Below the pieces are notes generated by a model. It worked only from the letters and a program-made list of their open reading frames with translations. It searched no databases and was not told the origin of the DNA. Positions 4,681 through 58,900 of a stretch of DNA of 64,000 nt are shown here, in pieces. Position numbers and translations under genes: made by a program. The DNA lies in NCBI GenBank assembly GCA_963669155.1, contig OZ022581.1, forward strand, positions 18,927,480 through 18,991,479. The letters run 5' to 3'. Positions within the stretch are counted from its first letter, which is position 1. Every line of letters starts with the position of its first letter. The stretch comes from Arbacia lixula (taxonomy: Eukaryota; Echinodermata; Echinoidea; Arbacioida; Arbaciidae).

Positions 4681-4905
4681 CTGTCACCTGCCCTGAAGAT
4701 GTCCGGCAGTTTATTGCTTCTACTGCCAGTACCGCGGCGGTCACGTGGACAGAGCCCACAACAGCAGACCCAACTGATATCCTTGTTGCCCAGACCGCAA
4801 GCTCGGGAGATGTGTTTGGTTTTGGATTCACATCAGTGACGTACACCTACCAGGATGCTGACACCGGGAGCCAAGGTTCTTGCAGCTTCACTGTCATTTT
4901 GGCTG
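4681..4905 (+). CDS. Exon 1: HYR domain, short variant
   Basis: 75 codons, phase 1-1, acceptor ctacag, donor gtgagt. It opens directly at AVTCPEDV, so about nine residues that normally precede the first cysteine are missing. The usual TDNSG is replaced by TADPTD. VTWTEP, VTYTYQD and the closing CSFTVILA are present. It is the most divergent HYR unit and the first recognisable exon in the window. Confidence 0.8.
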
Positions 4906-7900
4906 GTGAGTGTATTTATGTACATGCCCATACTAAAATAAGTTCAAATAGTTGAAGGCAATGACCATCAATACTCCCTTGTATTGAGAGTTGAAGTGAG
5001 ATGTGTATAGACTAGATCCATTCATTTAAAAAGAGTCTCCTAAACATACTGCAGTTTTCAACAAAGAGTGAAGTCAAGTAGAGTAAAGCATGAAACAAAC
5101 ATTTTATAGGTCTACCTATTGTACCAACTATCTTATTTGCTGGTTACAGAAGAAGCTTGGTGAAAGCAGTGACACTCTCCTTCAGGAAAAATAAAGTTAT
5201 TGCTTTGTCAATACAGATTATTGTGTCGTCTTAATCACTCCAACAAATGTAATCTGAGTAGACTGTTTTCGTAATGTATTCACAACTTTCCCCCTAAATT
5301 CTTAGTAACACGTTATTGCATTCACCTATACCTAGTCATTCAGATTCAATGGATGGAATGCATTTTGAATCTACTAGTTGTTGCTACTCTGACAAACCTC
5401 AGACAAGATTTGGGGTTCCCATTAGTAATGTATTGTTTGAACTACGTGAATAAAATTTGCGTACATAGCAAAAATGGTCGATTAATCAACATGTGCATTA
5501 GTACAATATTTTCTTCATGCATATAGTTGAATTTCAGTTGAAGTTACTTGTGTGCTATGCTTAATTGTGTTTTTCTCCCGGTTCTCCTCAGTCGCTTCTG
5601 ATACCACTGACCCCACTGTATTCAACTGCCCGGGTAACCAGGTTGCCTATGTGGCAAATGGCGTCGGCAGTACTCAGGTGACGTACACGGAGCCTGGTGC
5701 AACAGATAACCTTGGCACTGTCAGGGTCTTCCAGACCAACAATCCTGGTGATTTCTTTCCTGTTGGCACGACAACCGTCACATACACCTTTGAGGACACT
5801 GTGCCCAATGAGGCCCTCTGTGTCTTCACTGTGACAGTGACAGGTAACCTACCATCTACAATATCTTCAATTTAAATAAATTTATTTCATGGGTTTTTTT
5901 TTTTCTCTTAGAAGACTTTCAAAAATGAACATAGCAAAATAAACCTGCATGATGGAGTGGAGCCTAACAACATGATCAATTACATAAGAACATTAGATAA
6001 TGTTTTTTTCTTTTATTAACAAATGGATGTGTGGGTAAACCAGGAGACCACAAAGAGCTTATAAACCTTGGTCTCCAAAATAATCCATTGTTATGATTGT
6101 GCTTGGAGTCTAAACATTCCAGCTCCAAACTTGACACCTGACTCGATTCCTACAGTTTTCTATCTGTACATGAATACAATTGTTGGATAAACTTTAGCTC
6201 GCATTGAAAGATTCTGCTTTAGACGATACTCATACAGGGGATGAAATTAGCTGTATGCTGCTGGTGAAATGTGACTTTGCTCTCAACATCCATTTACTTT
6301 GATCTTTAGTCTGTGCCATTGCTTCATTGTTGATTCCTTGAAAGATATAAAGAGAAGGAGAATAATGATGTTGTATTAGTGTCTAAGAAATGAATGACCC
6401 ATGAAACAATCTCAGAATATAGAATGAGCTCTGTTAATATGATTTATGACATTTGTGTACATGTATACAGGTAGAGAACAAATTTCCTACTTGGTAATGT
6501 TGGCAGTGGTGCTCTAAGAGCAGAAGATCCAGCTCTTGTCGAATCACATTGGCCTTTGTTCTCAGAGTTGGCATTATTTCCATATTCCTTTTCCTCTACC
6601 ATGCAGTTGACACAACAGCGCCAGACATTTTCAATTGCCCAACTGGTGTTACCCAGCTGGTCGACAATCTTGGAGATACTGCTGTAGTCACATGGACCGA
6701 GCCAAGCGCAGTGGACAACAGCGGTCTGGCAGTGACCACGATCCAGTCTCACACCCAGGCGAGCTCTTTCCCCATCGGCTTTACGGGAGTCACCTACGTC
6801 TTCAGTGATCCCTTCAACAACATCAATGTCTGCAGCTTTGTGGTCACCATTGGATGTGAGTATAGGACAAACAAATTCATGAGTTGGGCCATATTCATTA
6901 AACCTTACTAGCCTTAGTTGGTTACTAAAAATACATGCAGCTGAATGCATTTGAGTAATTAACTAGGCTTATTAAGGGATGAGTATGGCCCCTGGACACT
7001 TATGGCATACACTAGATGGAAGAGATGGACAATGCAAGCCATGGAAGATGATATTAAGGGAGCATGGGAGTGTGACATGGCTAAGAACAGTACAACATAA
7101 AGTAAGATTGAAAATTGGAGAAAAGGCCTTCATTCAATAGTTAATAGGATCATTTAGATTAGTTAAAAGTTGTAGTTTCATGTCCATGGATTATTTGAGA
7201 CAATAGAATAGAATTTAGCTCTATGAAAATTGACCGTAGCGCGAGTTGTTCATGTATGTGGTTGCGTAATATTACAGCTGTGTCAACATTTGGGCATAAT
7301 CATATGCCTCTTTCAATTTCCTAGGCGAGTCTACAGGGGAGTAGTGATCAGTCCTCAAATGGAAATGGGGTGTCCTGTCTAAAGGTTGCCTTTTCGTGAT
7401 TTTCCGGTGAAAACATTCAAACATTTGTGTCTCTCTATACAGTGGTCGGGGACAACACTGATCCCGTAATCAGCAACTGTCCGGCAGACTTCACCATCTT
7501 TGTGGAAAACGGTAATGTGGGCACCCCCACCTGGACTGCTCCCACTGCCAGCGATGCGGCCACAGGGGTGACTCGCTTCACCACCACACGCAGCCCGCTC
7601 TCCAGCCTGTCCGTGGGAACCACCACCGTGGTCTACACCTTCGAGGACCCTTCTGGAAACTCTGCCACCTGCAGCTTTGATATCACAGTCGCAGGTATGG
7701 CAAATCAATCATCCCCCCCCCCCCCATGCAGCGGTAATCCTTTGGGGTGTTTTCGTCCCAACAGGGCCCCATCTTATTAAGAGTTGCAATTTGACCTGCG
7801 AGTTGTGTCAATCGTAACATGATAAAAAGTGCTGTACGTGTAAGGGAGAGTCCTTTTTGAAAATGTATGTATCACACAGAGTTGGTTGGAGAGGGAAATG

Positions 7901-10900: not shown

Positions 10901-13900
10901 ATGACTCTGGTTCTGTCACATTTGTCTCCACTCACCAACCCGGAGATGCCTTCCCCGTTGGTGAATCCACTACTGTGACTTACACTTTCAGCGACACTGC
11001 TGGCAATATGGATGTCTGTTCTTTCAATGTTGCTTTAACATCCTCTGGTATGTTTAGTCTGTCTTCTCTTCTCTGTCATGTAGTAATATTACTTTTCTTA
11101 ACATTGATGGATCTCTTATATGTATTTTATTGTGAATTATTGTTTGTTAAAAAACATTTTTATAGCATATTACAGCAAGTATTGTCTACTAAACTCATAT
11201 CAAACTGGTAAATTGTTTTGCCTCATCTGTCATGCTAATCTTTATATTCTGCATTCTCGGCATTCTTTGTATAACTGCAAATCAACAAAGGCCCTTTCGA
11301 AAATGTGTGCAATAATTCTGCCATTGCTCATCAGAACCCTGTCTCTTGTATCAGTCCATTTAAACAATGTTCATGTGTTGTGTTGTCCTGTGGTTATGTA
11401 TCATGTGTATCTGTGTACCTCACGTACTTGCCTATAGTGTCTGGGGACAACACAGATCCTGTGGTTGCTGGTTGCCCCTCTGACATTGTGGTGGAGGCCA
11501 TTGTAGGATCAGGCGATGTCTCGGTCACATGGACGGAGCCTACCGCATCGGACGATTCGGGATCCGTGTCGAGGAGTCAAACATCCAGTCCTGGCGATGC
11601 TTTCCCATTTGGGTCGACAGAAGTGACATACACTTTCACTGACCCATCCGCGAACTTTGCCACTTGCTCTTTCAATGTCATTGTGTCTGGTATGTGTTTT
11701 GATCGTTTCTAACCTTAATCCTGTATCTTAGGCAGGCTAACTACTACCTTTTGTTCATAATCTCTGTTACTGTGGAATTTGTGGGGAACTGCACACCTGA
11801 AAAGCAATCCACCTTCAGTCACATTCAATCCCTAATCTCACCCCAAAACACTGCCCATCCCCTTGCACACTTGAAAGCCCTCCAAACCACTCCAAAATGC
11901 CCCCACTCTGCACCTAAATGTGCCATCTTACTGATTCTTAGGACCAGCTGTATACAAGCTTGGTAGATAGAACTTGCCAAAGTGTGCATGCTAGTAAACT
12001 CCAATATCTTTGATATAAATGGAGATAAATGCAGGTAACATCTGCCTCCCTTGATAAACTAAACAGAAGAATATGCCAGTTTTTGTTACTGATATGGTTC
12101 ATTCTAGTCACGTTACTTGTGTTGTGCATGCTGAAGTAAGAACATTATCACACCGAGATGGTTGATGAAAAAAACATACTTAATTCTGTTCCTTGACCAT
12201 ATCCATGTTTGTAGGTAACAAAAGATTGTATCATTGTGTTTGTCTTGTTTTCATTTGCAGTATATTGCATATACATGTAAACCACTCAATATGGTCAATA
12301 TATGTTTGTGTCTCCAATAACCTACTACCACCCCCTACCATCACGTGCTATCATCACCTCCTGCCACCACCTCCACCCACTGCCACCACCAACATCACCA
12401 CACCCAATTACCACCTAAAACTACCACGGCCACTTCCTCCCACCACTACCATTACCACCTCCCAACACCACCACCTCCCCACACCACCATCTCCCCACAC
12501 CACCACCTCCCCACACCACCACCTCCCCACACCACCACCTCCCCACACCACCACCTCCCCACACCACCACCTCCCCACACCACCACCTCCTCACACCACC
12601 ACCTCCCCACACCACCACCTCCCCACACCACCACCTCCCCACACCACCACCTCCCCACACCCTTATTTCTCATCTCTCCTTGTCACCCCCATCACCATTA
12701 CTACCACCTTCCTGCACCCCAACCTCCCACACCACCACCTCCCCACACTCCAACCTCCCCACACTCCAACCTCCCCACACCCCAACCTCCCCACACTCCA
12801 ACCTCCCCACACTCCAACCTCCCCACACTCCAACCTCCCCACACTCCAACCTCCCATCACTTCTATCACCCCCATTACCCACACCCCCACCTCCACCACC
12901 ATCCACAGCCATCCCTGATGAGTCTGCACCCCAGGTCACTGGCTGTCCCTCTGACATTGAGGTGGAGGCTGTGGTGGGTTCTGCTGATGTACCCGTCTCT
13001 TGGATGGAGCCGCAAGCCACCGATAACTCTGGCTCCGTCAACTTCACTCAGACCGCCTCCCCTGGGGACCCTTTCCCATTTGGCTCCACTAACATTGTCT
13101 ACACTTTCACTGATGTGTCGGGAAACTCTGCTACTTGTTCATTTTCTGTGGTTATTATTGGTATGTTTGTCTTGTCTTTCTGTTTGTGTGTAATGAAATC
13201 TCACATGTGCACTATTATGTACACATATATATGCACACCCATTTTGCTTTCAAGATTTTGGAATTTTGTAATAGGGAACAATGAAACAAAGTTTGACTAA
13301 GATGTATGTTAAAGATACTTTTTAAGGTCCATGTATATATATATCTCTCATTAAAAATAAAAACATGTTTTAGACACATTTGTGTACACAATACATTTGC
13401 AATTGTCCATGTTTTCTGACGACTGTTAAAAAATAATAAATTATGGGTCAGCTTGGGAATTTGGGAATAGTTTATATAGGACTATACAGAAGTGTGTTCA
13501 GACATTTTAACAGATGTTCGTTAATGTACTTTTTTATGTTGTATCGTGTTCTTTTGTCAACTGTTTACATTTTGTATTGTATGTGTCATTTCTCTAACCC
13601 ACTATTCGTCCATGAATGTGTTACTGTAACTTGTCATGTGACCTCACCCAGCCATTCCCGACGAAGAGGATCCAGTCGTTGTTAACTGTCCGTCTGACGT
13701 TACCTTGACGGCTCCCTCTGGTGTTGGTGCTGTCAGTGTCACATGGGTGGAGCCCACGGCCACTGATAACTCTGGATCGGTGTTCACCTCTGCGTCACAT
13801 GTCCCCGGAGATGTCTTCCCCGTAGGCTCGACTGAAGTCACTTACACTTTCACGGATACCTCTCTCAACACTGTTGTGTGTTCCTTTAATGTGATTGTCT

Positions 13901-16900
13901 CTGTTGGTATGTTAACAACTGTTTGATCCTTTCCACTCATTTCCTACTACATATAAATTGTTGGGCTTTCCAATGTAAAACAAAGGACTTAATCTGCCGA
14001 TATGTTTCAAGATTATCTAGCTCATGATTTCTGGGCATGTTGCTATATCGTTTCATTCTCATCAAACTTCATTTAAGATAGTAACGTTAATCATTCATAC
14101 ATCTTGTATGTTTATACATGTATGTTGGCTCTTCTCCATTTGTGTGTGATTTCATGTTCTACTGTATAAATTCTTTGTATTCCTTGTATAAGTACAGAAC
14201 TTGTAACTGTTGATATCTGTGAAATGTATTCATGTTGTACTCTGTCCCATGAGGTTCTGTATTAATCCTACCATCTTGTATCAATTCCATTCTGTATCCA
14301 CGGTTACATCACTAACCCAACCCAGCAAGTGGCGACAATACACGCCCTGTCATTGCTGACTGTCCTGAAGACATCTCCATCCAGCTCCCCGATAACATTC
14401 CCATAACGACCATCTCTGTCACGTGGGCGGAGCCTACCGCTACGGATGACTCGGGCTCTGTTTCGTTCGTGACCACTCACGAGCCTGGCGACGCCTTCCC
14501 TGTGGATTCCTCGACTACAGTTACTTACACATTTAGTGATGAGGCTGGGAATTTGGCGACCTGTTCATTCAATGTAGAGGTGTCTTCTGGTATGTTTACT
14601 AACACAATAACATCTGGCATGGTTAATGTATTTATGTATTGCATCTGTGTTTATTGTGCTTACCAATGATGTGTAGAATTTGTCTCAACTCAATTATGAT
14701 TTTGTTCCTTCTTTCAGAACATAAGTCTTGATTCAAATCTCTGAAAAAAGTACAAGTGGATTGCAAAATGTTAAATTATCCAAATCTACCATATTGTTTT
14801 CTTTGCTTTTACTTTTCTTTTGTTTTCAGTTTGTGAATTTATGTTTATTGATTCTCTGCAAATTTTCTGAAACTTTGCTTTCTATATGTTCTGTGTACCT
14901 CAACAATACTAAATAGGCATACATTATATCATTTTCTGCACGTGCCATTAGTTTCTCTAAAGCTCACTTCTATTGTTTGTAACTGTCAGTCCTGCAAGCT
15001 CGGAATTGTTACCGGTAGCTATTCAATTCTTGAGAGTATTGTCATACTTTTTGTTCAGTCCAAGGAGTTTGCGTTTTCCCATTTCTTTCTGTTTGAGTGT
15101 GCCATGCTAACCGTTAACACAACCGTTCCGTCTGCAGCCACTACTGACAACGTTGACCCCGTGATCAGTGGATGTCCCTCTGACATCACTGTCTCGGCAG
15201 CCCTTGGCTCTAACGGCGCCACTGTAACCTGGAACGAGCCCACGGCAACCGACAACTCTGGCTCTGCCCCCGTTGTTACCTCCTCTGCCTCTCCCGGTGA
15301 TGCGTTCAGTGTTGGCACTACCTCTGTGTTGTATACTTTCACAGATGCTTCCGGAAACTTTGCTCAGTGTGCTTTTGATGTAACTGTGGTTGGTACGTCA
15401 TTGCTGTAACATTCTCACTAGCATGTTAGGCCTGCTGCCTTTGATGTTTTCCCCACAAATTAACATTCATGACTTTGCTATTCATTGTTTTAAGTGTGAC
15501 CATTGTGTCATTGTAACATTTGATGTGTGATAGTTCTGTTTTTCTGTTTTTGTTCTTTTTTTGCTGCTAAAATTTGCTGACATACCTGTGCATACAACCA
15601 CATACAAGGAAAAGTCATTTGATGTACTGCATAGCTGGATCCAGGTATTTTTTTGTGGTCATGTCTGCTTCTGGTCTAGTGTACCAGTGTAAGAGACAGA
15701 AGCTGACATAATGGTAACAAAAATCTGGTCGTTGCTGTGCAGTGCATTATTGGACGACATTCTCCAATATATGTACATACATACATTATATAGTTATTAA
15801 TTGTTGTTGTTCTGTGAAATGAACTATGTAGTATGTTCATGAATTGTATTCGCAAGTCTGTTATGCATTATATTGTTATGTATGTTTGTTTGTACTCTTA
15901 TACCCCGAGAGGGGGTCTCTAGAGTCAATAAAATTCTACAAAATTCTAAAAATTCTATGTTTATGATATCCATCATTTATCTCTGTATTCAATCATGTAA
16001 GTTGTTCTATCATTACCCAGAGAGCATCAAACAATGTATGTGCATTAATATTGCATTGCATTTTGTATTTGTGTTCATCATGCCTCATATACTAGTGATA
16101 TGACATATATAATTCTTGCTAAAAACTCAGAATTCCTTCAAATCTTAAAAGCATGTGATTTCTTCCCCCCCCCCCTGCCTTGAAACCTATTAAGCAAGCA
16201 ACTTTTGCTAGTAAAATTGTATTATTTTGCTCTTCATGCAGCCACTACTGACAACACAGACCCAGTTATCACTGGCTGTCCCTCAAACATCAATGTAGTC
16301 ATCCCCTTTGGATCCACTAGTACCTCTGTCACCTGGACAGAGCCCACTGCTACCGATAACTCTGGTGGTGTAGTTACTTCTACATCTACTGCTGTTCCTG
16401 GAGCTTCCTTCAATGTTGGCACGACCACTGTTACCTATGTGTTCACCGATGGTGCTGGAAACAACGCCATCTGCCAATTTACTGTCACTGTCTCAGGTAC
16501 GCTCACACACCCTTTGAAAGAATTTTCTTGTAATCTTTTTATCCCTGTCACAGTACTTCTTCAATGTCTATGAAGTTTTTATTCTTCTTCCGAGCTGGTA
16601 CTTTTGTGTAATGTTCTGTTTTTGTTCATATGTTCTGGAGAAAGTGACTGTCTGCACCATCCTTTTCAAAGAACTTTCACCAAATTATTAAGGACACGTG
16701 TGTTTGTAATGATTTGTTCCCGTTTTATACTCCTTCAAAGTCCATAAACTAAAGCCAATTATTCCACATAGAGGCCTCTTTCTTCAGAAAAAAAACTGTG
16801 TATTTCCCCACTAGGATTTGGTTTGATTGCATACAATATTAACGCATGTGCATATTATTTGTCACTCTTCTCAATGCAGAGTATAGGGGTGTAATATTGT

Positions 16901-19900
16901 TGCGATATGATACACTGGTGGAAATATTCAAATGCAATTCTTTCCTTGGCACATGCACAGTCTCGTAGAAGCACATTGAGATAAGGGCACCAAATGCAAT
17001 AAGGTACACTGATGGCATTGTCATTGTCAGTGTCATGACGTCATATTAACTTGATCTTCATGGAACACCACCCCAGATAAATTGCATTCACAAAACATAA
17101 ATAATTTTTTTTTTTTTGTATACCAGTTAAATTGCATTCAGTTAGCATGAATATATCTGGTATACCACTGGAGGGCATCCAATATTGTAACGAATGTATG
17201 CTGTTGTTCCCTTGTACCTTTGTGTAATGTTTAATCTTTGGGTATATCATGTGGCATTATATATATATTTATATCAACACCGTTGCATCCCCATTCTATT
17301 CTATAGCTACTACTGACAACACAGACCCAGTTATCACTGGCTGTCCCTCAAACATCAATGTAGTCATCCCCTTTGGATCCACTAGTACCTCTGTCACGTG
17401 GACAGAGCCCACTGCTACCGATAACTCTGGTGTAGTTACTTCTACATCTACTGCTGTTCCTGGAGCTTCCTTCAATGTTGGCACGACCACTGTTACCTAT
17501 GTGTTCACCGATGGTGCTGGAAATGATGCTACTTGCCAGTTCAATGTCATTGTCTCTGGTATGCACTCACCCTTTCTAAGATTTTTTCATGAAGTGCACG
17601 CCTTTTGTAGACATTCTATCTTGTGTTGTGTTGTCCTGTGGTTATGTTTCATGTGTATCTGTGTACCTCACATACTTGCCTATAGTGTCTGGGGACAACA
17701 CAGATCCTGTGGTTGCTGGTTGCCCCTCTGACATTGTGGTGGAGGCCATTGTAGGATCAGGCGATGTCTCGGTCACATGGACGGAGCCTACCGCATCGGA
17801 CGATTCGGGATCCGTGTCGAGGAGTCAAACATCCAGTCCTGGCGATGCTTTCCCATTTGGGTCGACAGAAGTGACATACACTTTTACTGACCCATCAGCG
17901 AACTTTGCCACTTGCTCTTTCAATGTCATTGTGTCTGGTATGTGTTTTGATAGTTTCTAACCTTAATACTGTATCTTAGGCAGGCTAACTACTACCTTTT
18001 GTTTATAATCTCTGTTACTGTGGAATTTGTGGGGAACTGCACACATGAAAAACAATCCACCTTCAGTCACATTCAATCCCTAATCTCACCCCAAAACACT
18101 GCCCATCCCCTTCCATACCTGAAAGCCCCCCAAACCACTCCGAAATGCCCCCACTCTGCACCTAAATGTGCCATCTTACTGATTCTTAGGCCCACCTATA
18201 TACAAGCTTGGTAGATATAACTTCCCAAAGTGTGCATGCTAGTAAACTCCAATATCTTTGATATAAATGGAGATAAATGCAGGTCATATCTGCCTCCCTT
18301 GATAAACTAAACAGAAGAATATGCCAGTTTTTGTTACTGATATATTACATTCTAGTCACGTTACTTGTGTTGTGCATGCTGAAGTAAGAACATTATCACA
18401 CCGAGATGGTTGATGGACAAAACATGCTTAATTCTGTTCCTTGACCATATCCATGTTTGTAGCTAACAAAAGATTGTATCCATGTGTTTGTCTTGTTTTC
18501 ATTTGCAGTATATTGCATATACATATAAACCACTCACTATGTTAGCATATTATGTTTGTGTCTCCAATAACCTACTACCACCCCCTACCATCACCTGCCA
18601 TCATCACCTGCCACCACCTCCACCCACTGCCACCACCAACATCACCACACCCAATTACCACCTACCACTACCACCATCACTTACTCCCACCGCTACCATT
18701 ACCACCTCCCAACACCACCACGTCCCCACACCTACACCTCCCCACACCACCACCTCCCCACACCACCATCTCCCCACACCACCACCTCCCCACACCACCA
18801 CCTCCCCACACCTACACCTCCCCACACCACCACCTCCCCACACCACCACCTCCCCACACACCACCTTCCCACACCACCCCCTCCCCACACCACCACCTCC
18901 CCACACCACCACCTCCCCACACCACCACCTCCCCACACCACCACCTCCCTACATCACCACCTCCCCACACCACCACATCCCCACACCCTTACCTCTCATC
19001 TCTCCTTGTCACCCCTATCACCACCACTACCACCTCCCTGCACCCCAACCTCCCACACCACCATCTCCCCACACCCCAACCTCCCCACACTCCAACCTCC
19101 CCACACTCCAACCTCCCCACACTCCAACCTCCCCACACTCCAACCTCCCCACACTCCAACCTCCCATCACTTCTATCACCCCCATTACCCACACCCCCAC
19201 CTCCACCACCACCACCCACAGCCATCCCTGATGAGTCTGCACCCCAGGTCACTGGCTGTCCCTCTGACATTGAGGTGGAGGCTGTGGTGGGTTCTGCTGA
19301 TGTACCCGTCTCTTGGATGGAGCCGCAAGCCACCGATAACTCTGGCTCCCTCAACTCCACTCAGACCGCCTACCCTGGGGACCCTTTCCCATTTGGCTCC
19401 ACTAACATTGTCTACACTTTCACTGATGTGTCGGGAAACTCTGCTACTTGTTCATTTTCTGTGGTTATTATTGGTATGTTTGTCTTGTCTTTCTGTTTGT
19501 GTGTAATGAAATCTCACATGTGCACTATTATGTACACATATATATGCACACCCATTTTGCTTTCAAGATTTTGGAATTTTGTAATAGGGAACAATGAAAC
19601 AAAGTTTGACTAAGATGTATGTTACAGATACTTTTTAAGGTCCATGTATATATATATCTCTCATTAAAAATGAAAACATGTTTTAGACACATTTGTGTAC
19701 ACAATACATTTGCAATTGTCCATGTTTTCTGACGACTGTTAAAAAATGATAAATTATGGGTCAGCTTGGGAATTTGGGAATGGTTTATATAGGACTATAC
19801 AGAAGTGTGTTCAGACATTTTAACAGATGTTCGTTAATGTACTTTTTTTATGTTGTATCGTGTTTACATTTTGTATTGTATGTGTCATTTCTCTAACCCA

Positions 19901-22900
19901 CTATTCGTCCATGAATGTGTTACTGTAACTTGTCATGTGACCTCACCCAGCCATTCCCGACGAAGAGGATCCAGTCGTTGTTAACTGTCCGTCTGACGTT
20001 ACCTTGACGGTTCCCTCTGGTGTTGGTGCTGTCAGTGTCACATGGGTGGAGCCCACGGCCACTGATAACTCTGGATCGGTTTTCACCTCTGCGTCACATG
20101 TCCCCGGAGATGTCTTCCCCATGGGCTCGACTGAAGTCACTTACACTTTCACGGATACCTCTCTCAACACTGTTGCGTGTTCCTTTAATGTGATTGTCTC
20201 TGTTGGTATGTTAACAACTGTTTGATCCTTTCCACTCATTTCCTACTACATATAAATTGTTGGGCTTTCCAATGTAAAACAAAGGACTTAATCTGCCGAT
20301 ATGTTTCAAGATTATCTACCGGGTAGCTCAAGATTTCTGGGCATGTTGCTATATCGTTTCACTCTCATCAATCTTCATTTAAGATAGTAACGTTAATCAT
20401 TCATACATCTTGTATGTTTATACATGTATGTTGGCTCTTCTCCATTTGTGTGTGATTTCATGTTCTACTGTATAAATTCTTTGTATTCCTTGTATAAGTA
20501 CAGAACTTGTAACTGTTGATATCTGTGAAATGTATTCATGTTGTACTCTGTCCCATGAGGTTCTGTATTAATCCTACCGTCTTGTATCAATTCCATTCTG
20601 TATCCACGGTTACATCACTAACCCCACCCAGCAAGTGGCGACAATACACGCCCAGTCATTGCTGACTGTCCTGAAGACATCTCCATCCAGCTCCCCGATA
20701 ACATTCCCATAACGACCATCTCTGTCACGTGGGTGGAGCCTACCGCTACGGATGACTCGGGCTCTGTTTCGTTCGTGACCACTCACGAGCCTGGCGACGC
20801 CTTCCCTGTGGATTCCTCGACTACAGTTACTTACACATTTAGTGATGAGGCTGGGAATTTGGCGACCTGTTCATTCAATGTAGAGGTGTCTTCTGGTATG
20901 TTTACTAACACAATAACATCTGGCATGGTTAATGTATTTATGTATTGCATCTGTGTTTATTGTGCTTACCAATGATGTGTAGAATTTGTCTCAACTCAAT
21001 TATGATTTTGTTCCTTCTTTCAGAACATAAGTCTTGATTCAAATCTCTGAAAAAAGTACAAGTGGATTGCAAAATGTTAAATTATCCAAATCTACCATAT
21101 TGTTTTCTTTGCTTTTACTTTTCTTTTGTTTTCAGTTTGTGAATTTATGTTTATTGATTCTCTGCAAATTTTCTGAAACTTTGCTTTCTATATGTTCTGT
21201 GTACCTCAACAATACTAAATAGGCATACATTATATCATTTTCTGCACGTGCCATTAGTTTCTCTAAAGCTCACTTCTATTGTTTGTAACTGTCAGTCCTG
21301 CAAGCTCGGAATTGTTACCGGTAGCTATTCAATTCTTGAGAGTATTGTCATACTTTTTGTTCAGTCCAAGGAGTTTGCGTTTTCCCATTTCTTTCTGTTT
21401 GAGTGTGCCATGCTAACCGTTAACACAACCGTTCCGTCTGCAGCCACTACTGACAACGTTGACCCCGTGATCAGCGGATGTCCCTCTGACATCACTGTCT
21501 CGGCAGCCCTTGGCTCTAACGGCGCCACTGTAACCTGGAACGAGCCCACGGCAACCGACAACTCTGGCTCTGCCCCCGTTGTTACCTCCTCTGCCTCTCC
21601 CGGTGATGCGTTCAGTGTTGGCACTACCTCTGTGTTGTATACTTTCACAGATGCTTCCGGAAACTTTGCTCAGTGTGCTTTTGATGTAACTGTGGTTGGT
21701 ACGTCATTGCTGTAACATTCTCACTAGCATGTTAGGCCTGCTGCCTTTGATGTTTCCCCCACAAATTAACGTCCATAACTTTGCTATTTGTTGTTTTAAG
21801 TGTGACCATTGTGTCATTGTAACATTTTATGTGTGACAGTTCTTTTTTCTTTTTTTTTGCTGCTAAAATTTGCTGACATACCTGTGCATACAACCACATA
21901 CAAGGAAAAGTCATATGATGTACTGCATAGCTGGATCCAGGTATTTTTTTGTGGTCATGTCTGCTTCTGGTCTAGTGTACCAGTGTAAGAGACAGAAGCT
22001 GACATGATGGTAACAAAAATCTGGTCGTTGCTGTGCAGTGCATTACTGGACGACATCCTCCGATATATGTTTAGGATATACATCATTTATCTCTGTATTC
22101 AATCATGTAAGTTGTTCTGTCATTACCCAGAGAGCATCGAACAATGTATGTGCATTAATATTGCATTGCATTTTGCAGTTGTGTTAATCATGCCTCATAT
22201 ACTAGTAATATGACATAAATAATTCTTGCTAAAAACTCAGAATTCCTTCAAATCCCCCCCCCCCCCCCCCCCCGCCTTGAAGCCTATTAAGCAAGCAACT
22301 TTTGCTAGTAAAATTGTATTATTTTGCTCTTTATGCAGCTACTACTGACAACACAGACCCAGTTATCACTGGCTGTCCCTCAAACATCAATGTAGTCATC
22401 CCCTTTGGATCCACTAGTACCTCTGTCACCTGGACAGAGCCCACTGCTACCGATAACTCTGGTGGTGTAGTTACTTCTACATCTACTGCTGTTCCTGGAG
22501 CTTCCTTCAATGTTGGCACGACCACTGTTACCTATGTGTTCACTGATGGTGCTGGAAACAACGCCATATGCCAGTTTACTGTCACTGTCTCTGGTACGCT
22601 CACACACCCTTTGAAAGAATTTTCTTGTAACTTTTTATCCCTGTCACAGTACTTCTTTAATGTCTTTGAAGTTTTTATTCTGCTTCTTCCAAGCTGGTAC
22701 TTTTGTGTAATGTTTTGTCTTTGTTCATAATTTTTTATGTTCTGGAGAAAGTGACTGTCTGCACCAACCTTTTCAAAGAACTTTCACCAAATTATTAAGG
22801 ACACATGTGTTTGTAATGATTTGTTCCCGTTTTATACTCCTTCAAAGTCCATAAACTAAAGCCCATCATTCCACATAGAGGCCTCTTTCTTCAGAAAATA

Positions 22901-37900: not shown

Positions 37901-40900
37901 CATTAACCTTTCCTTCCTCCAAAATCCTTGGTAATCTCACTAACAGCCAGCATTGACATCACTGCACCTATTGTAAGCGACTGTCCCAGCGATATCACAG
38001 TCCAAACCACACTGGATGGAACAGCTGTAGGAGTGACATGGACTGAACCCACTGCTATTGATGATTCTGGCTTACCAGTTACTACCACGCCCTCTGCCAA
38101 TCCTGGGGATTCTTTCCCTGTGGGTACCACTAGTGTGGTGTACACATTTACTGATAATTCTGGGAACACGGCTGTGTGTGCTTTCACCATAACTGTCACT
38201 GGTATGTTGGTCTTCTTTTCTGCCAGGTGTAATAACTATTCCAAACTGATCCTACTCTGCGGCCATTTCCCTATAATTGTATACCGATTCTCTAACTTGT
38301 GTCTGTCTTTAAACCTAATGTATTGATTAAACAAAATCCAAGGCATCCCTGCAATGATGGGTGACGTATTAACAAATTTGTGTTGCTGCATGTGTACATT
38401 TATGCATTACCTTAATGTTTGCAATGAATTCTCCTGCAAGCTGTGAAATTTTCTCAAGTTTTACCAGGAAATCGTATTCAAATATTTTATCAAATATTTG
38501 GGACCATCAAAGTAAACCTTGCACCTCAAACCTGCACTAATATTGATATGCTAAAACAAATTTGTGTATTTCTGTCTATCTTGGTACCATACATGCAAAT
38601 ATTAACCCCTTTCCACCCAACAAAATCCTTGGTAATCTCACTAACAGCGAGCATTGACATCACTGCACCTATTGTAAGCGACTGTCCTAGCGATATCACA
38701 GTCCAAACCACACTGGATGGAACAGCTGTAGGAGTGACATGGACTGAACCCACTGCTATTGATGATTCTGGCTTACCAGTTACTACCACGCCCTCTGCCA
38801 ATCCTGGGGATTCTTTCCCTGTGGGTACCACTAGTGTGGTGTATACATTTACTGATAACTCTGGGAACACGGCTGTGTGTGCTTTCACCATAACTGTCAC
38901 TGGTATGTTGGGACAATTTCCCTCAAGAGCTAATATTTTTTTAATCTGATCATACTATATTCAATTTTCTAAACCTGTAACCTGCTCGTATACTTATCCT
39001 TGAGGCTCTGTTTATCTCATTTCTATTGAATCAAATATATGTCAATATGTCAGGCATCCCTGCAATCATGTGTGACATATTAATAACACTTGTTTTGATG
39101 AATTACATCACAGTAATGTATTCAGTTCTCTGGTATTGTGCAGTTATTTGATAGCTTCTCTGTATATATGCATATTATCATAATCAAATGTTTGTGCTAA
39201 AGATTTTGATACATTATTTATACCCCCACACCTGCACTAATATCACTAACAGCCACCATTGACATCACTGCACCTGTGGTGCTCGACTGTCCCAATGACA
39301 TCACAGTTCAAACCACACTGGACGGCACACCAGTAGGAGTCACATGGGCAGAACCCACTGCCTCGGATAATAGTATGCTTGAGGTTACTACGACTTATAC
39401 TGCAAGTCCCTTGGACCCGTTCTCTGTTGGTTCCACTACTGTCGTGTACACATTTACTGATAACGCTGGCAACACGGCCCTGTGTGCTTTTGATGTTACT
39501 GTTGAGGGTATGCCAGTTGCATGTGTTGCCTTGTTGGTAGTTGCCTTGTTTTTTTCATATCTAGGAGCTAGCTCATTGACAACAAACTTGTGGATTGTCA
39601 TGTTATAGATCCATGTTTCATGTAGCGCATACATATTCAGCAATATGTAGAGACAGATGGCAATACCAGTTGCATTTGTAGCTGATTGATGCATACATAA
39701 GTATTTCCCATGCACAGAATATATGTGGTACTAACATACTAACTTTCAAAGCTACTCCTAAAAGAAAGCTGGTATCACATTTTATACTTTGACACGATAT
39801 GTGGTTGCGCAGTGTATTCTCATTTTCAGGATTGTCTAATTTTAAAAAAATTTGTCTGCATGATTTGGGACTATGGTGACCAGGCAACTTTTAGACAGAA
39901 CATTAATTGTTGACCTTTTGTATTACAGCATTTCACCATCATCCATTGCAGTTTGATATACCTGTATTGTAGTTGGCATGTACAGATGTATAGTTCGTTT
40001 CCTTTCATCATTTGACATCTTGTTTGGGAGTGTATAACAAAATACAATGGTATACGTCTTTTCAATTTTAGACCCAAGCTTCTCCAAATTCACCAAAAAA
40101 AAAAAACGTATGTGTTAATATTTGGTACAGACAGCATCGTGACGAGTGATGACAAACACGAAGGTCAAACTGATAAGACATAGAAATGGTGTCCATTTTT
40201 TCAGGTAGAAAGGTTTGACACAATTTATGATTGTGAACTAACATGTGAGAATGCTCTACAATTACAAGATTTCCAAGTCCTAACATGAAATATAGCATGG
40301 AGATGCCGGTAGTTATCAAACTATACTGCCTCTTCACATTCCTGATGTAGTTTCTGAATGCAGCGAATGGTGTACCATTATTTATAGTGTACCATTATTT
40401 ATAGAGTCACTAGCAGTTGCACGAAGATAGCCTTTCAAGCAAGTGAAGGAAGTGTATTACATATGTATAGCTTAGCTCTGTGTTGTGATGCCTTGTGGCA
40501 GTAGCTGAAAAGGTGCTTAGTATACTTCCTGTCTGAAGGGCAAACTCATAACCTTGAGTAACAAGATTAAAGATTGGTCTGTTAATCTTGAAGGAATTGA
40601 TGTACTGTCAGTATTTTCTTGGTTACTTGCTCTATCAGCAGAGTGGTATACCATTTTGCTGTTCAGTTTATATAAGTCCACACGTTGTGCATATTTCATA
40701 TATTTATTTACGATGATCATACAAGTTTTTTATGTTTGCATGCCACTTTTCTTAAGATGGACTATGGATAACGCTGCTCCATAAAGAATTAGGCCTGATT
40801 ACCATAATTTTTTTTTCAGATTTATTACTAGAAATTGAGTATTTTGTTCAACAACTGTAAATTGATCATTCCCTTACCTTTTGCATTGCAGCCACCATTG

Positions 40901-43900
40901 ATAATACTGTTCCAGTCATAACTGGTTGTCCCAGTGACATCACCGTCCAAACCACACTTGGCGGCTCAGCTGTAGCAGTCACATGGACAGAACCAACCGC
41001 AGTTGACGATTCTGGCCTTCCGGTTACCACCACTTCGAATGCTTCTCCTGGAGATTTATTCAATCCTGGAACCACCACTGTCCTGTACACGTTCACTGAC
41101 AATGCTGGCAACCCTGCTTTCTGCATCTTTACTGTGACAGTCCTTGGTAGGTGGTCAACTATTTTTGCGCTGTTTCTGTCTGTTTGATATTTTTGTGATC
41201 ACCTGTTATACTTATGAATACATGTAATATGTATCGTCCAATGTAAGTCCGACCTACTCTCACTTTAGAATCCATATAACAATATTTGTGCTAATTTTAT
41301 ACGTTTGTGGTCAATTTATTTCTATTGGAGTGCTGTGATTTATGTTACACGAGTAGAATGAAGTGAGTTTTCAATGTTCATTGCATGCTCATCCTCTTAT
41401 CGTATGCTCATCTGTGTTGTAAATCCCCTTCTGTGTTTAGATGTTACATTCATTGTCACTTGTTTGAAGTGTTCCTACATATATGTCTTCTTCATTTAAT
41501 TGTTTGCAACGGATAACAGCCGATGCAGATAACACTGGCCCAGTTATAAGCAACTGCCCCAGTGACATCACAGTCCAAAACACTCTCGGAGGAACCGCCG
41601 TAGGGGTCACATGGACCGAACCAACGGCAGTTGACGACTCTGGCCTCCCGGTTACTTCAACTTCGACTGCTTCTCCTGGAGATTCTTTTTCTCCTGGGAC
41701 CACCACTGTTCTGTACACATTCACTGACAATGCTGGCAATCCTTCATTTTGTTCTTTCGACATCACCGTACAGGGTAAATTGTTGTACCCACGCTAATTG
41801 TCTTTCATCTTTTTGTACATAATCATTTTATGTATATTAGTCTGTCATGTGTGTGCTCTTCCGGGGTTGTCCAACCACAGTTCATCTTTCTGCCTTATTT
41901 TCAAATCCCATTCAATGTCAAGTACCTTCCACTGTATTAAGGCCTGGTCACATCTAACTGAATGGCATTGTGCTTAACAAATTGAAAACTGGTGAAGTAC
42001 AATTATTCAAAGAGGAACATCATTTCAGTGGCAGCTTATAGGTGTCCTTTGAAGTGATATGCAATGGATCAAATGCTACAGTAAAAGAAATTGATTTACC
42101 AAACAAGAAAAGTACAAAAAACGTATCTTAATGGAGATAAACGGATTGAAAATTCTGGTTTATGTTTGGCATATGTCTTGCAATTCCGTCAGATGTGGCC
42201 AAACAATTAAGCAAAGCTAATCAAAGGACAGTATGTTTTGACTTACCATTTGGAGGTCAAGTAGGCTATCAATAACAACCGAGGTAGGCCCTGACTCCTG
42301 GTAACTGCTATATCATCTGATTGGTAACATACAGTGATCTATTTAAATAGGATTTCTGTTTATATTTCAAATATAGACTAGTAAGCGCCGTTCAGCTTTG
42401 GCCTAAAGAACAGAAGAAAAAATTATCTCATCTGAGCCCATTATGCTGTGTCGTTGTGTTATGTACCCTCAATGTTTCTGTTACGGTGTCCCTCTGTCTG
42501 TGCATGTTTCACCACATTCAACCTCACATATAGCTTCTAGTGAGCACACTGGCCTAGTTACAAGTGACTGCACAACTGCCATCATGGTCTAATCTTGGAG
42601 AAACATCCATAGGGGTCACTTTCCATTACTGCCATTCACCTCTAACTTTGTCACGTTATGGTTCATGTTGTATGTCATTGTTGACACATTGTTGACACAA
42701 TTTTGTTGACACAAAAATGCTGTTTCATATGAAGTTCTGTGTGAATTACACCCTACCTTTAGATTCATATTGTTCATTAATAATCTTAAAGCAGAGGACT
42801 CGTATGAATTTAAATAGAGATTGGGACCAAATTGTTTTGAACTCTTCTGGCCTCTTTGAACACCAAAAATATGTTAATTGTCAAAGATGTAAGAATCTGC
42901 ATTCTCCATTCAATTCAGGAAGAAAAGTGAATTATTCGATTCCTACATAAATATAATAAATTAAGGTAATGTACATTGTATTTCATCATGTTGAATGATT
43001 GTTACTTGTTACTTCTCTGGGTCAGCTCACCACATCAGCCATGAAAGTATGTAATAATTTGTCTTCTTCATCTGGGTGCTGTCCCTCTTTGATATCCATC
43101 AGGGTCTTCAATCAAAAGGTTGTAGATATCTTAAGATACAGAAAGCAAAAGTTAACGAACAAAGTTCTTTCTGGAACAACTTGAGAAAATAACATGTCTC
43201 ATCTGACCCAAACTCCTTCATATCATGTTTATGTTAACACACTGTTAACAGCACACGCTCTGTACACCTGTTTTGATCACATTTAACCTCACCCACAGCC
43301 AACATTGATAACACTGGCCCAGTTATAAGCGACTGCCCCAGTGACATCACAGTCCAAACCACTCTCGGAGGAACCGCTGTAGGGGTCACATGGACCGAAC
43401 CAACTGCGGTTGATGACTCTGGCCTAGCGGTTACCTCAACTTCGTCTGCTTCTCCTGGAGATTCTTTCTCTCCTGGGACCACCACTGTTCTGTACACATT
43501 CACTGACAATGCTGGCAATCCATCGTTTTGCACTTTCACAATTACGGTTCTGGGTATGTGTGGCTAACCATTCACTTCTAAATTTGTCACATGCACTATG
43601 GTTCATGTTGTGTGTTATTACTCAATGATGTTGACAATACATATCTTAAAAAATGGTGTTTTCTAGGATGTTGTGTATGAATTAACCTATACCTTATTCT
43701 TCTCACTTTGGTTTGGCCATTCATTAACTTCTTTAAAAAAGTGGAATTTCAAGAATTAAGAAAGTCATTAGGACCAATTTGTTCTGAATTTTCCTGACTA
43801 CCACATTAATCATGAAATTAGTAATTTTTCCTGTTGATTTTGGTACAGTAATCAAGCAAAAAGTGTTGAAAATGCCAGGAAACAGCAAAAAACAATTAAG

Positions 43901-46900: not shown

Positions 46901-49900
46901 GCGCTTGGTTACCTATGATTAGCAAATACGATGTGGCAGAATGGAACAAAAGACCGGACGGACTATTATTGGAACGCTGGCCTTTCCGGTCCAACCGTCG
47001 GACCGCTATTCAGGAAAGTTAAAGGCCCATCCATTCTTTTGTCTAAAAGACACAGTGAAGACGGTCAACATGTTTTGACAAGGCACCTAAGATCTCTCCC
47101 ACTATGCCTCCCTCCTCAGCAACAACTGACCAGACCCCACCGGTCATCAGCGGCTGCCCAGACCCTATCACGGTGAACAGCGTGTCAGACAACAACCAGG
47201 TGACAGTGACCTGGCTGGAGCCCACTGCCACTGACGACTCTGGCACTGTGCCCCAGGTCCTCAACAACTTCAACCCTGGAGACCTGTTCACCATCGGCAC
47301 CACCATCGTGACCTACACCTTTGTGGACAACGCCGGAAACCCCTCCACCTGCTCCTTCGAAGTCAATGTCATTGGTAGGTTTGTGCTATTGCTAGCTCCT
47401 ATTACCAATATACACTTATTAAGACCCTTAGCCCCTGACAGCTATTTGCTCCTACACCTTTGTGGACAAAGTGGGGAACCCCTCCATCTGCACCTCCATT
47501 GATTGCTATTGCTAGCTCCTATTTCCACTGTGCACTTATTTAAACCCTTTGCCCCTTAAAGTATGTACACAAGGAAGCAATTTGCTGCTGCTGTAGATTG
47601 CCAAAAATTATACACTGTGGGCCATTTTGGGTTTCTCTAATCTTACCATTTTGTTTCTTTTACTTTTATTACTTTACTAGCCGGCAGATAAGACGCACAC
47701 ACATATAAGACGCAGCCAGATTTTGAGCACTCAATTTGAAAAAAAAGAAGAAAGAAATCGGGTCTCACGTATACACATGTATGGGACTATGCTATACAGT
47801 CAACAGCAAAATAGATGGCTTTGATAGCCTGACACAATTGATGTACTGGTAATACGATCTCAATCACATCACGAGCACAATTACCGGTGTAAGAAAGCAC
47901 CAGGACTAGTATTTGTTCGAGACACCCCAAAGAAACCGCTAGCTAGAAAGCTAAGCCCTAAGGATAACCTCCATTAGATCGGAGCCGCTATTGTTGCTTT
48001 GATCCGGCCATGAGATGGCGCAATACACGGTCTCGGAGATTTTTTTTTTTTTTTTAAATCTCTGAGACGAGGCTGTGAATAGCACCATCTCCCGGTCAGA
48101 TCAAAGCAACAATAGCGGCTCTGATCTAACTGACTTTATCCTTAGGGCTTAGCTTTCTCGCTAGCGGGTTCTTTGAGGTGTCTCGGACAAACACTAGTCC
48201 TGGTGCTTTCTAAGTACTTGTAATTATGCTGATGATGTGATTGAGATCGTATTACCGGTATTGTTGCGGGCTATCAAAGCCATCCATTTTGTTGTTGAAT
48301 GTTGATTGTTGTCACACATTGCATAGTCCCATACATGTGTAAACATGTTGGTTTGAAAGACCCGACCCGCATAAAAGACACATCTGGAGTTTGGCGTTAT
48401 TTTCAAGGGAAAAAACATTCGTCTTATATGCCGGTAAATATCATAAATGAAACTTATTTTGAGGGTATAATTTTTTTGATTCCTTGTATTTACTGAGCCA
48501 TTCATATTTGCAGGCTGGCCTTTTTTCAGTCAGATACTAAGCAGTGCCACTCCCTCTTAATCTGCTGTACGGACAACAGGCAATTAATAAACTTCAAATT
48601 ACTTTTAGACCGCAATTAAGCCATACCCATTTGGTTACTGCAGTTCCATGGCAAATTTTCACATCTTAAGTGAACCAGGGTTCACAAAGCCCAGAAATCT
48701 AACTGAGCAACTGGTTAAATCCACCAACATCTACAACATTTTGTGCTCTGATTGTCTGCAAAGTTTGTTGAATTGTGTATGAAGTACATATCAATGAGCG
48801 GAGAAATAATTATATTCCTTCCTTCTTTGCCACCACAGACAACAACGCACCGGTCATCAGCAACTGCCCGAACAACATTGCCGTCAACATCCCCTTCGGC
48901 ACCACCTCAGCCGCTGTTACGTGGACCGCTCCCACGGCAACGGATAACTCTGGTGGCAACGTAGTGGTGACGTCAACCGCCACGCCGGGCCAGGCCTTCC
49001 CTGTGGGGGTCACGCAGGTCACCTACACCTTCACCGACCAAAACAACAACCCCGCCATCTGCAGCTTCAATGTCATTGTTATTGGTAGGTTCATCCAACC
49101 TCCTAACCCACTTATTACCGACCATTGATAAAAAAAGCACTTATGATAACATTTATTGCCAATGGGACAGAAAGGGATAACCATTCATGTATGGTACAAG
49201 CTCTTCGGTGATTTTTTTTAATTTGACTAAAATATATGCCACATACAATGTATTTGATCATTAATCTTTACAGTACAAGGTCTTGAAAACGCCATTGGCA
49301 TAATACATATATTAATGCCAATAATAACAAGAGAGTTGAAACCCACAAATAGGCTGATTTGGGATGTTAAACTTTACCATTGGATGTCACACTGTATGAT
49401 CACTGAGCACGGTTGCACATCCTTGCACACACCCTTGGACAAGGGTTTTTGCTCATGCTTGTCCCCTCTCAACCTAGGTGAAGTAAATTGATACCTGGTA
49501 CAGTTTAATACTGATCTAATTAGATCAACCAGCTTTCACCCTGCATACAGCTGCTTGGCTAATTATGCGCATAGAGACATATATCCAAGCCTATGTGATC
49601 TGCCATATACAGGAATGTTTATCATGACAACTATATTAAGAGCTATGTACAGGTATATGAACAAAGGTCCATAGATTTTTGACCCCTGACTGTCACCTAT
49701 CTCCTGTATTGTTTCCAGCTGGGGGCGATGTCACCCCTCCTACCATCTTTGGGTGCCCCAATTCAATCACCGTGGACAGCGACAGCACCCTCAATGGTGC
49801 CTTTGTCACCTGGACTGAGCCCACTGCCACCGACAACTCTGGCGCGGCCCCCAACGTGGCCAACACCAACTCCCCCGGCGATTTCTTCTTAATCGGAGAT

Positions 49901-55900: not shown

Positions 55901-58900
55901 CACAAAAATACATTAAACTCGGTGTCAAATTGTGTATGAAGATTATCACTTTGCATATATTTTTGGCGTGATATGGTAATGGGCAAAGATCAAAAATGTC
56001 CATTGACTTTTGAAAGTTGACTGGACTTGATCATCAATCATATGCAAGAGATTCTATGAATTTCACATCTTTTTTTTCCCTGCACAGTTGACGACCTGGT
56101 ACCAGAGCTTGTTTCCTGTCCAGACAACATTGTTGTCGATGTTGAAATCGGAGTTGGAGGCACACCGGTCACGTGGGAAATCCCTACTGCAACAGACAAC
56201 TCTGGAATTGCACCGACTGTGGAGACCAACTACAACCCTGGTGATTTCTTTGATGTCGGCTCAACTGTGGTGACCTACATCTTCACTGATGCTGGAGGAA
56301 ACGAAGTCCGATGCGTCTTCAATGTGGCTGTCACTGGTGGTAAGTCTCCTTACATCTCAAAAATGCAGTGTTTACAAAGTTTACCCTTTCATTACCAGGC
56401 CTTGAAAGACCCGTTGGTCTAGTATACATCGTTGTGACAATAGTGATAAGAAATTTAAAAACCCTTCTGATTTTCTGTATGCATTTAAGTGTATCACAGT
56501 GTCACATTGGTCTAATGTGTCTTTAGTGTAGAAGTCACTGATGGTAAACTTGTCTTCTTCACTTCATCACTTCATCTATCACTTCATCCTGCATTATTTT
56601 AACAGTGCTAACTGCCCTTTTGAATCTTCTTCATCGCTTTGAGTGTACCAACAGTGTCAAATTACTCTGTAAGAGTGGTGACAAAAGTTTCAGTATATCA
56701 GCTCCAAAACATGGAATAGTCTCCCACGTAATGTAAGAGAATGTGCCTCATTAGAAACTTTTAAGAAACACTTACAAACATACCTTTTTTCTCATCAAAC
56801 TTTTTCAATTCCTTTTTATTTGTTTTGATATTAGTTGAAGATTATAAGAGCTATCATGGTACTTCTAGTGTATAAAATGCTTAAATACCCATATTACTAC
56901 CGTAATTATGAGGAAGGTCTTTCCCGTACAAAAAATGAAGAAATATCTTTGCTTACTGCAGCCCCTTCTGAGGTAAAGGTAACTTCGCTATTTAACCTGT
57001 ATGTGGATGAACAGCGTGACTCAATTGGTAGAGAGTTAGTCTCTCATCATTCGATGAAGAGCAGGATGAAAACCTGGTAGGGTGGACAAAAAGCCCACCC
57101 TGGAAAACAGGTGATTGATGCAGACCTGGTTTACCCCAGAAGGCTGATCAGCCTACGAATGGTATCAAAAAAGAGTTAAAAGTGCCATATGAAATAGTAC
57201 CAATAATACCTGTACATGTCTTTCACCCCCCCACCCCCTACAGTTGACACCACGCCCCCCTTCATCCAGTCCTGCCCTAGCGACATCGTCCTCAACACTG
57301 ACATCACTACCCTTGGTGCTGTGGTTGACTGGGAGAGCCCTGTTGTGGCAGATGCCTCAGGGGACCCCATCAGTATTGTCGTATCCAAGTCCTCCAACAG
57401 CTTCTTTGACATTGGTACCACCAACGTCATGTACACCTTTGTGGATTCCTCAGGGAACAGCATCTCCTGCGACTTTGACGTCACCGTGGTGGCAGGTATG
57501 GCAATTTTTTTCCACAAATTAAATCATACAAGATGGAGTTATGTCATATACTGTGTCCAGTAAAAAATGGTGTGGCAGAAATGATAAAAGCAATATGGCT
57601 ATCTGAGATAAATCCCTTCAGTAACTTCTTTGTGGAGAGTGAGACATGTTCTAGCGTCCACCTTTATAGACACACCACATTTTCTGTTTTCCCCTGAAAA
57701 TATTTCATGTTTAAACATGTGTTGAAGTAACCTGCACATAAGGACCATCTGCTCATAAAGACCACACTTAAAGATCAAGAAGATGCCTCTCTTACTCCAC
57801 ATTGGTGCAGTATGTGGTGCACATAAATCACACACAGAAACATTTCATGAATAGTGAATATTAAGTCAATTGAGTGCCGATAAGTGATACTCTGGTAGTA
57901 CAAGAGTTAATGAATATTTACTTGATTCATCATCCTCAGTTGACGAGGAGGATCCTGTTATCTCTGGCTGTCCCGGCAACCTCGTTAGCACTGTCCTGAC
58001 AGACACCACTGGGGGCAGTGTCTTCTGGCAGGTGCCGACAGCCGTGGATAACTCTGGGGACGAGCCACTCCTCCAGACCACCGCTCCAGAGCCTGGAAGC
58101 TTCTTCCCTGTCGGGGTTTCCACCATCACCTATGTGTTTGTGGACGGCGCTGGCAACGATGCTACCTGCACCTTTACCATCACCATCGACCAAGGTGAGT
58201 GATGAGCCTTCCGGGTTGCGTTGTGAATGCAGTGAAACCTGCTGTAGCGACCACCTGTGTAGAAAGACCACTTTCCTATAGGGACCATATTGTTTGTTTC
58301 TATCATGTTTCTCATTGAATTCTGTTTCAAAGTAACCTGCATTTAAAGACCACCTGCTCATAAAGATAACATTTCTGGTCTCCCTCGAGGGGTTTTTATA
58401 TACAGGTTTCACTGTGATGTAGCAATAACCCTGTACCATGAGGTGTATATTAGTACTGCCAAAGGGCATTATGCACTTTACATCTATCCATATGAAGATT
58501 TAAAAAAAAAAAGAGCTTTGAGAAGAGAGATGCAACGATAAGGACCTGCTCTTGATCAGTATCCCCAGAGAGAAAGAGAGAGAGAGATGGATCTATTCAT
58601 AATGGTGGGAGACATGCAGGTACATGTACATGTAAACCTATTTTTGTGGTAATAGAACAGGCATTCATTTTATGATGTCCTTTATGTAGGCACCCTTATA
58701 TCACAAAAGAACTAAATGTAATAATTGTAAAACAATAGTATCTACGACTAGTGGATATAGAAATGCATTGAAATCGAGATCAAGTTGAAATCCTCTCCTC
58801 TGGGTATACCTTTGCCAACAGACTCTCCATGTGCTGCCAGTCCCTGTGAGAATGGTGGTGTGTGCCTGGCCCAGAGCCTGGTGGACTACGTCTGTGTCTG

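Follow-up and report, generated by a model that had tools for sequence, protein, structure and literature searches.

The 64,000-nucleotide (nt) window analysed here, a stretch of the genome of the sea urchin Arbacia lixula (C6:18,927,480-18,991,479), contains 60 exons in tandem, each of which encodes one HYR domain. These exons appear to be the first and largest part of a single gene of approx. 103.5 kb, which would encode a signal peptide, 60 HYR domains, nine EGF domains, 25 additional HYR domains, two or three more EGF domains, one transmembrane helix, and a short tail. The predicted product is a type I membrane protein of the hyalin/HYR group, whose array would have grown by unequal exchange and which would form an anchored rod stiffened by calcium; we assign this reading a probability of roughly 0.6. 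HYR repeats are named after hyalin, which carries them in tandem; the name of the arrays goes back to a classic adhesion layer of the embryo. Complete gene models of HYR arrays are hard to obtain because of their repeats. The model presented here predicts a membrane-anchored relative of hyalin and a specific HYR calcium site that one mutant can probe; moreover, the length of the coding array that it describes may vary from one individual to another in a wild species. Unless a locus is named, positions are given in window coordinates, which continue beyond both ends of the window.

The HYR array and its splice phases

A search of the window with an in-house profile revealed 60 full-length HYR copies, all on the plus strand. 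The profile was derived from 35 stretches of the window that passed the cut-off when the genome was searched with the Pfam HYR family; two weak minus-strand matches and two short, partial plus-strand matches were dropped from the window count. HYR 1-60 extend on the plus strand from the first acceptor at 4681 to the last donor at 58194, with one domain per exon in phase 1-1. When only phase-1 sites are allowed, all exon lengths are multiples of three, and the exons sum to 15,216 nt, which corresponds to 5,072 residues. The original prediction had placed about 60 one-domain HYR exons at 4681..58194 and estimated 'about 5,070' HYR residues, and the profile reproduces both the number and the end coordinates. 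It had also described the array as very long; the length stands, but the exons in the window would be only the beginning of a longer gene with the order HYR-EGF-HYR-EGF-membrane, and 25 further copies (HYR 61-85) are located beyond the window at 65623-90969. Six HYR exons scanned against Pfam PF02494 (exon 1, one common to 15, 22, and 31, one common to 38-40, and exons 60, 61, and 85) all score between 55.8 and 87.6 bits, compared with a curated cut-off of 21.7 bits, while the remaining exons were called by the in-house profile. Two conserved cysteines are counted among the features that define HYR, and exactly two are present in each of the 85 domains.

No reading frame was assumed when the splice phase was determined, and the test covered all 85 HYR copies in a 154 kb region that includes the window, where 60 of them are located. 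With a search span of 20 nt beyond the domain end, the best-scoring donor was in phase 1 in 85/85 copies, and a span of 40 nt gave 83/85. Of the 84 copies with an AG in range, 80 have their best acceptor in phase 1, and a phase-1 AG is present for all 85. As a control, random intronic anchors yielded best donors spread evenly across the three frames (513, 521, and 538; none found at 397). The same donor phase was found at two other HYR loci of the genome (54/57 and 16/17). The uniform, symmetric phase 1-1 claimed at the outset is thus borne out by a test that does not presuppose it. In itself, phase 1-1 is unsurprising for HYR because shuffled extracellular modules have been described as typically of class 1-1 (PMC8001218), and the HYR exons, with a phase-1 intron on either side, belong to this class.

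From putative signal peptide to membrane exon

The open frames directly after HYR 60 hold EGF domains, and the first EGF exon begins within the window, at 58822. A profile built from nine of these EGF domains gives nine matches between HYR 60 and HYR 61, of which the window includes eight. It gives three more beyond HYR 85, and one of these three is partial. EGF 1-8 (58822..63706, plus strand) are encoded one per exon in phase 1-1, at 58822-58935, 59516-59638, 60089-60214, 61000-61122, 61545-61670, 62050-62184, 63052-63207, and 63560-63706. Outside the window are EGF 9 (64677-64796), the partial and doubtful EGF 10 (92727-92807), EGF 11 (98436-98540), and EGF 12 (99079-99213). In a Pfam scan, EGF exons 6-9 and 10-12 pass the cut-off, and exons 1-5 fall short of it (19.4 vs 21.5 bits).

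Candidates for both ends of the gene were found separately. A putative signal-peptide exon at -2973 to -2913, 7.6 kb upstream of the array, encodes MEKITLLLFIASLAAQAYGQ and ends in a phase-1 donor that matches the consensus; it is the sole one with the full donor consensus among five phase-1 candidates in 34.7 kb. At the other end, the exon at 100338-100558 begins with a phase-1 acceptor and encodes a transmembrane helix and a tail of approx. 20 residues before a stop codon. The best phase-1 start (-2973) and the best phase-1 end within the gene span (100338) are located at the two ends of the predicted gene. Joined together, the 99 exons comprise 23,298 nt in one frame with one terminal stop, i.e., 7,765 residues, and the product has a mass of ~793 kDa unmodified, an isoelectric point of 4.05, and a charge of about -741 at pH 8. 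The module exons were chosen for openness and phase; the informative point is that the two separately found end exons fit the frame. Judged by hydrophobicity and frame, the signal peptide and the single C-terminal membrane helix are those expected of a type I membrane protein. The exons, their phases, and the open frame are features of the DNA itself, and the splicing and membrane topology are predicted from them.

Related loci are found elsewhere in the genome (606,990,701 bases in 590 contigs), in which 150 of 1,343 HYR candidates were scored, so that the true number is higher. At C17:1.68-1.75 Mb, 45 HYR, 10 EGF, 12 HYR, 1 EGF, and a membrane exon follow one another on one strand, and an incomplete locus at C6:15-55 kb shows the order 13 HYR, 10 EGF, 4 HYR. 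At the C17 locus, 4 of the 68 domains are without one or both phase-1 sites of their own, and thus the rule of one domain per exon has exceptions in a relative. Domains without their own splice sites are located at C17:1721856-1722210 and C17:1740908-1741423, a pattern that intron loss with exon fusion could have left behind; some C17 exons perhaps hold more than one domain. A genome search with the C17 tail returned five matches, namely, the tail itself, two weak matches at C6 (E-values of 0.31 and 1.35), and one each at C12 and C16. The C12 match was dropped as repeat-rich and the C16 match because the hydrophobic stretch was not found. The two weak C6 matches are close to clusters of HYR domains, one at C6:5.11 Mb and one at 4.96 Mb, and both read as a membrane helix with a tail ending in RPDEVVYVN. 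The window tail, when searched in the same genome, matched itself, C8, and C14; the latter two were dropped, C8 because the region is rich in repeats. The four membrane tails have C, P, R, and DE in common, and the other three are 29-31% identical to the window tail. A comparable membrane tail thus seems, from the sequence, to terminate three other HYR clusters of the genome.

These tails bear on the possibility that the product is in effect a secreted matrix protein, a hyalin of the hyaline layer, either because the membrane exon is skipped or because the ectodomain is shed. The derivation of the name HYR from hyalin speaks for such a product. In addition, 21 genes of Strongylocentrotus purpuratus have been described under the name hyalin (PMC11212366). 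However, the membrane helix is clear and, together with the stop, matches the reading frame, which would speak against a purely secreted product, and the similar tails at three other HYR loci point in the same direction; secretion is thus considered unlikely.

It is also conceivable that two or more neighbouring HYR genes are present, for example, one with HYR 1-60 and the EGF block and another with HYR 61-85 and the membrane exon. Several observations weigh against a single gene: the parts are linked by genomic sequence alone, HYR 60 and HYR 61 are 7.4 kb apart (with nine EGF exons in between), long gaps follow HYR 85, and weaker phase-1 candidates occur elsewhere, namely, a start at 15957 and ends at 24515 and 91830. 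Nevertheless, the best phase-1 start and end are found at the two extremes, all parts join in frame, and the C17 locus shows the same order of parts on one strand, which makes a division into separate genes rather improbable.

The surroundings of the predicted gene show further features. Long C/T-rich and other tandem repeats flank its 3' end (93.7-95.6 kb and 112.4-116 kb). Upstream of the predicted start, long open frames of 461, 323, 161, 239, and 315 codons are located on the minus strand at -15487 to -10346, perhaps belonging to a mobile element. At 123504-123820, another open frame resembles a phase-1 exon and includes both a membrane helix and a stop; it is possibly part of a neighbouring gene.

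Growth, decay, and possible conversion of the array

Blocks of seven, two, and one exons have been multiplied within the array. The largest is a tandem duplication of ~6.2 kb (11371..23733, plus strand), in which HYR 10-16 (11371-17622) and HYR 17-23 (17619-23733) are arranged head-to-tail and are 94.7-95.2% identical. A 16-bp minisatellite, ACCACCTCCCCACACC, occupies the matching introns of the two block copies, with 24.6 copies at 12454-12855 and 28.6 at 18701-19165. The block is followed on the same strand by approximately four copies of a two-exon 1.65 kb unit (24436..31395; HYR 24-32), which are up to 97.5% identical, and by one-exon units of ~0.7 kb (36419..38911, plus strand; HYR 37-40). 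In a self-comparison limited to segment pairs of at least 900 bases and at least 88% identity, 48/48 ends of the 12 listed pairs are intronic, with exons making up 26% of the span and the ends not being independent of one another. Three plus-strand remnants of HYR exons are located in introns, two representing the 5' part (35836..35913 and 42546..42619) and one the 3' part (47451..47495), which indicates that modules decay as well as multiply. The frame-safe gain and loss of exons that had been claimed from exon phase alone is thus reflected both in duplicated blocks that end in introns and in exon remnants. Unequal exchange within introns would lengthen and shorten the array and, as all exons are of class 1-1, blocks of one, two, or seven exons could be added without damage to the frame. 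When 171 HYR domains of five loci were placed in a tree, the nearest neighbour came from the same locus for 145 domains, and a few next to the EGF block paired across loci (C6a_13/C17_45, C6a_12/C17_44, and W60/C17_42), with weak support of 0.59-0.85. This pattern would fit interior growth and older array ends.

The four closest intron pairs differ at 3/376, 7/767, 8/763, and 9/763 sites (~1%), and the remaining 12 intron pairs compared differ by 4.3-6.9%. As heterozygosity in A. lixula has been given as 3.47-4.40% (PMC11310861), the newest units separated more recently than two alleles typically have. From their youth, it is to be expected that module number is likely to differ between individuals.

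Divergence of this order also raises the question of whether part of the repetition, above all the 6.2 kb block, is an assembly artefact in which haplotypes were placed in tandem, given that the ~5% difference between the block copies is near the heterozygosity. However, the region is free of N, the head-to-tail junction (17619/17622) is intronic, and the assembly is described as based on HiFi reads (PMC11310861). Moreover, the newest 1.65 kb units are closer to each other than alleles are, and most distinct HYR types have diverged far beyond alleles, as 35 of the 60 remain after removal of copies that are at least 75% identical. An artefact is thus quite improbable, and growth of the array by unequal exchange is preferred.

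Duplication does not account for all similarities between exons. Within 36526-38902, HYR exons 38 and 39 are identical across 255 nt, whereas the introns after HYR 37, 38, and 39 differ mutually at 43-76 of about 443 sites (10-17%). The identity needs more than duplication; exon-sized gene conversion would explain it, and very strong constraint that includes silent sites would be another option. In four groups of recent HYR copies, the mean ratio of nonsynonymous to synonymous substitution (Ka/Ks) is 0.17-0.35; the groups include edge copies with non-homologous flanks, for which intron divergences come out too high, and the separate pairwise comparison of introns was used instead.

Predicted fold, a candidate calcium site, and known systems

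HYR has been described as an immunoglobulin-fold module that is likely adhesive (PMC3340373). The predicted structure of the domain is all-beta (pLDDT 96), and immunoglobulin and cadherin domains are among its fold matches, the top one being the calcium-binding, cadherin-like module of SraP from Staphylococcus aureus. A sequence search of the PDB with HYR gave 14 sequences at E up to 10, of which SraP was the best, albeit weak (E 0.13). In the profile, D1, D36, [DNE]37, and D66 occur together in 75/85 HYR domains, and D66 is the sole profile Asp that aligns to an SraP ligand, in that weak alignment and with residues counted by hand. The Asp/Asn pattern resembles the Ca2+ ligands of SraP and marks a candidate calcium site. 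Like HYR here, SraP modules are arranged in tandem; each SraP module binds one Ca2+, and together they form a rigid stem. Unlike the HYR array, SraP has two modules only and a different Asp spacing, and the sequence relation is weak.

On this basis, each HYR domain would be a beta sandwich of the immunoglobulin/cadherin type, with Ca2+ near the N-terminal linker, held by Asp1, Asp36, Asn/Asp37, and Asp66. In seawater, tandem HYR domains would form a stiff, highly acidic rod, the length of which would be set by module number. Anchoring of the rod by the C-terminal helix would follow from the sequence; the calcium site and an adhesive role, in which the rod ties the cell surface to a hyalin-type matrix or to similar proteins, are what we infer.

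The acidity is accompanied by a scarcity of basic residues. Of the 5,012 residues counted in HYR 1-60, 2 are Lys and 13 are Arg (0.30%; 0.45% in the non-redundant 35), 46/60 domains have neither, and the longest stretch of the joined exons without Lys or Arg comprises 1,605 residues. With so few trypsin sites, the array would resist trypsin-like proteases. The scarcity was rejected as a novelty, as the values for 79 bacterial HYR domains (1.54%, from a set biased by its query) and other urchin samples (0.87-2.08%) place it at the far end of a tendency seen throughout the family. In Bacteroidota (e.g., Saprospiraceae), the identity of HYR domains to urchin HYR 6 reaches 61%; this closeness equals or exceeds that between many HYR domains of the same urchin gene and might reflect convergence, transfer, or strong constraint.

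At the DNA level, the array resembles kringle IV-2 of LPA, described as a two-exon coding repeat of 5.6 kb whose number varies between people (PMC6314250). Both have a unit of small exons in a coding array; however, the domains are unrelated, and individual variation has been shown for LPA and is only expected here. A bacterial protein with 23 HYR domains has also been described (PMC3723904). Uninflatable (Uif) of Drosophila, a large membrane protein with EGF and HYR (PMC3340373), shares these features with the predicted protein, but has three HYR domains plus CUB, CCP, C-type lectin-like, and FA58C domains. An egg-surface sperm receptor of the EBR1 kind is very improbable: EBR1 of strongylocentrotids has been reported to combine CUB, TSP, and multiple HYR (PMC8403831), and EBR1_5 to have SEA and a membrane domain along with no more than seven HYR, three of them under positive selection (PMC5521101), but no CUB, TSP, or SEA was detected in the eight proteins derived from selected exons that were scanned with Pfam, and the mean Ka/Ks of the recent HYR copies is 0.17-0.35 in four groups.

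Rather tentatively, and as a possibility more than an expectation, it may be proposed that sea urchins have a family of membrane-anchored hyalin-like giants in which 9-10 EGF domains separate two HYR arrays, the short tails are related, and the number of HYR domains ranges from 17 (at an incomplete locus) to 85. Such proteins would act as calcium-stiffened molecular rulers whose length is set by an individually varying exon copy number, and gene conversion on the scale of single exons would maintain the similarity of their HYR exons. Already known are class 1-1 exons, HYR arrays, array growth through unequal exchange, and HYR membrane proteins (EBR1_5, Uif). Among the literature matches listed, no paper deals with this gene or with HYR exon structure, and the complete layout, the size, and the tail common to the relatives may be new.

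The closest comparison is with hyalin itself. Hyalin, too, has tandem HYR, is extracellular, and belongs to a multi-gene group of sea urchins, and a tandem HYR array in a sea urchin is what the window contains. It differs in that descriptions assign it to the hyaline layer as a matrix glycoprotein, whereas the protein predicted here has two EGF blocks and a membrane helix in addition. The S. purpuratus hyalin genes are set apart by this description only, and they may have the same layout.

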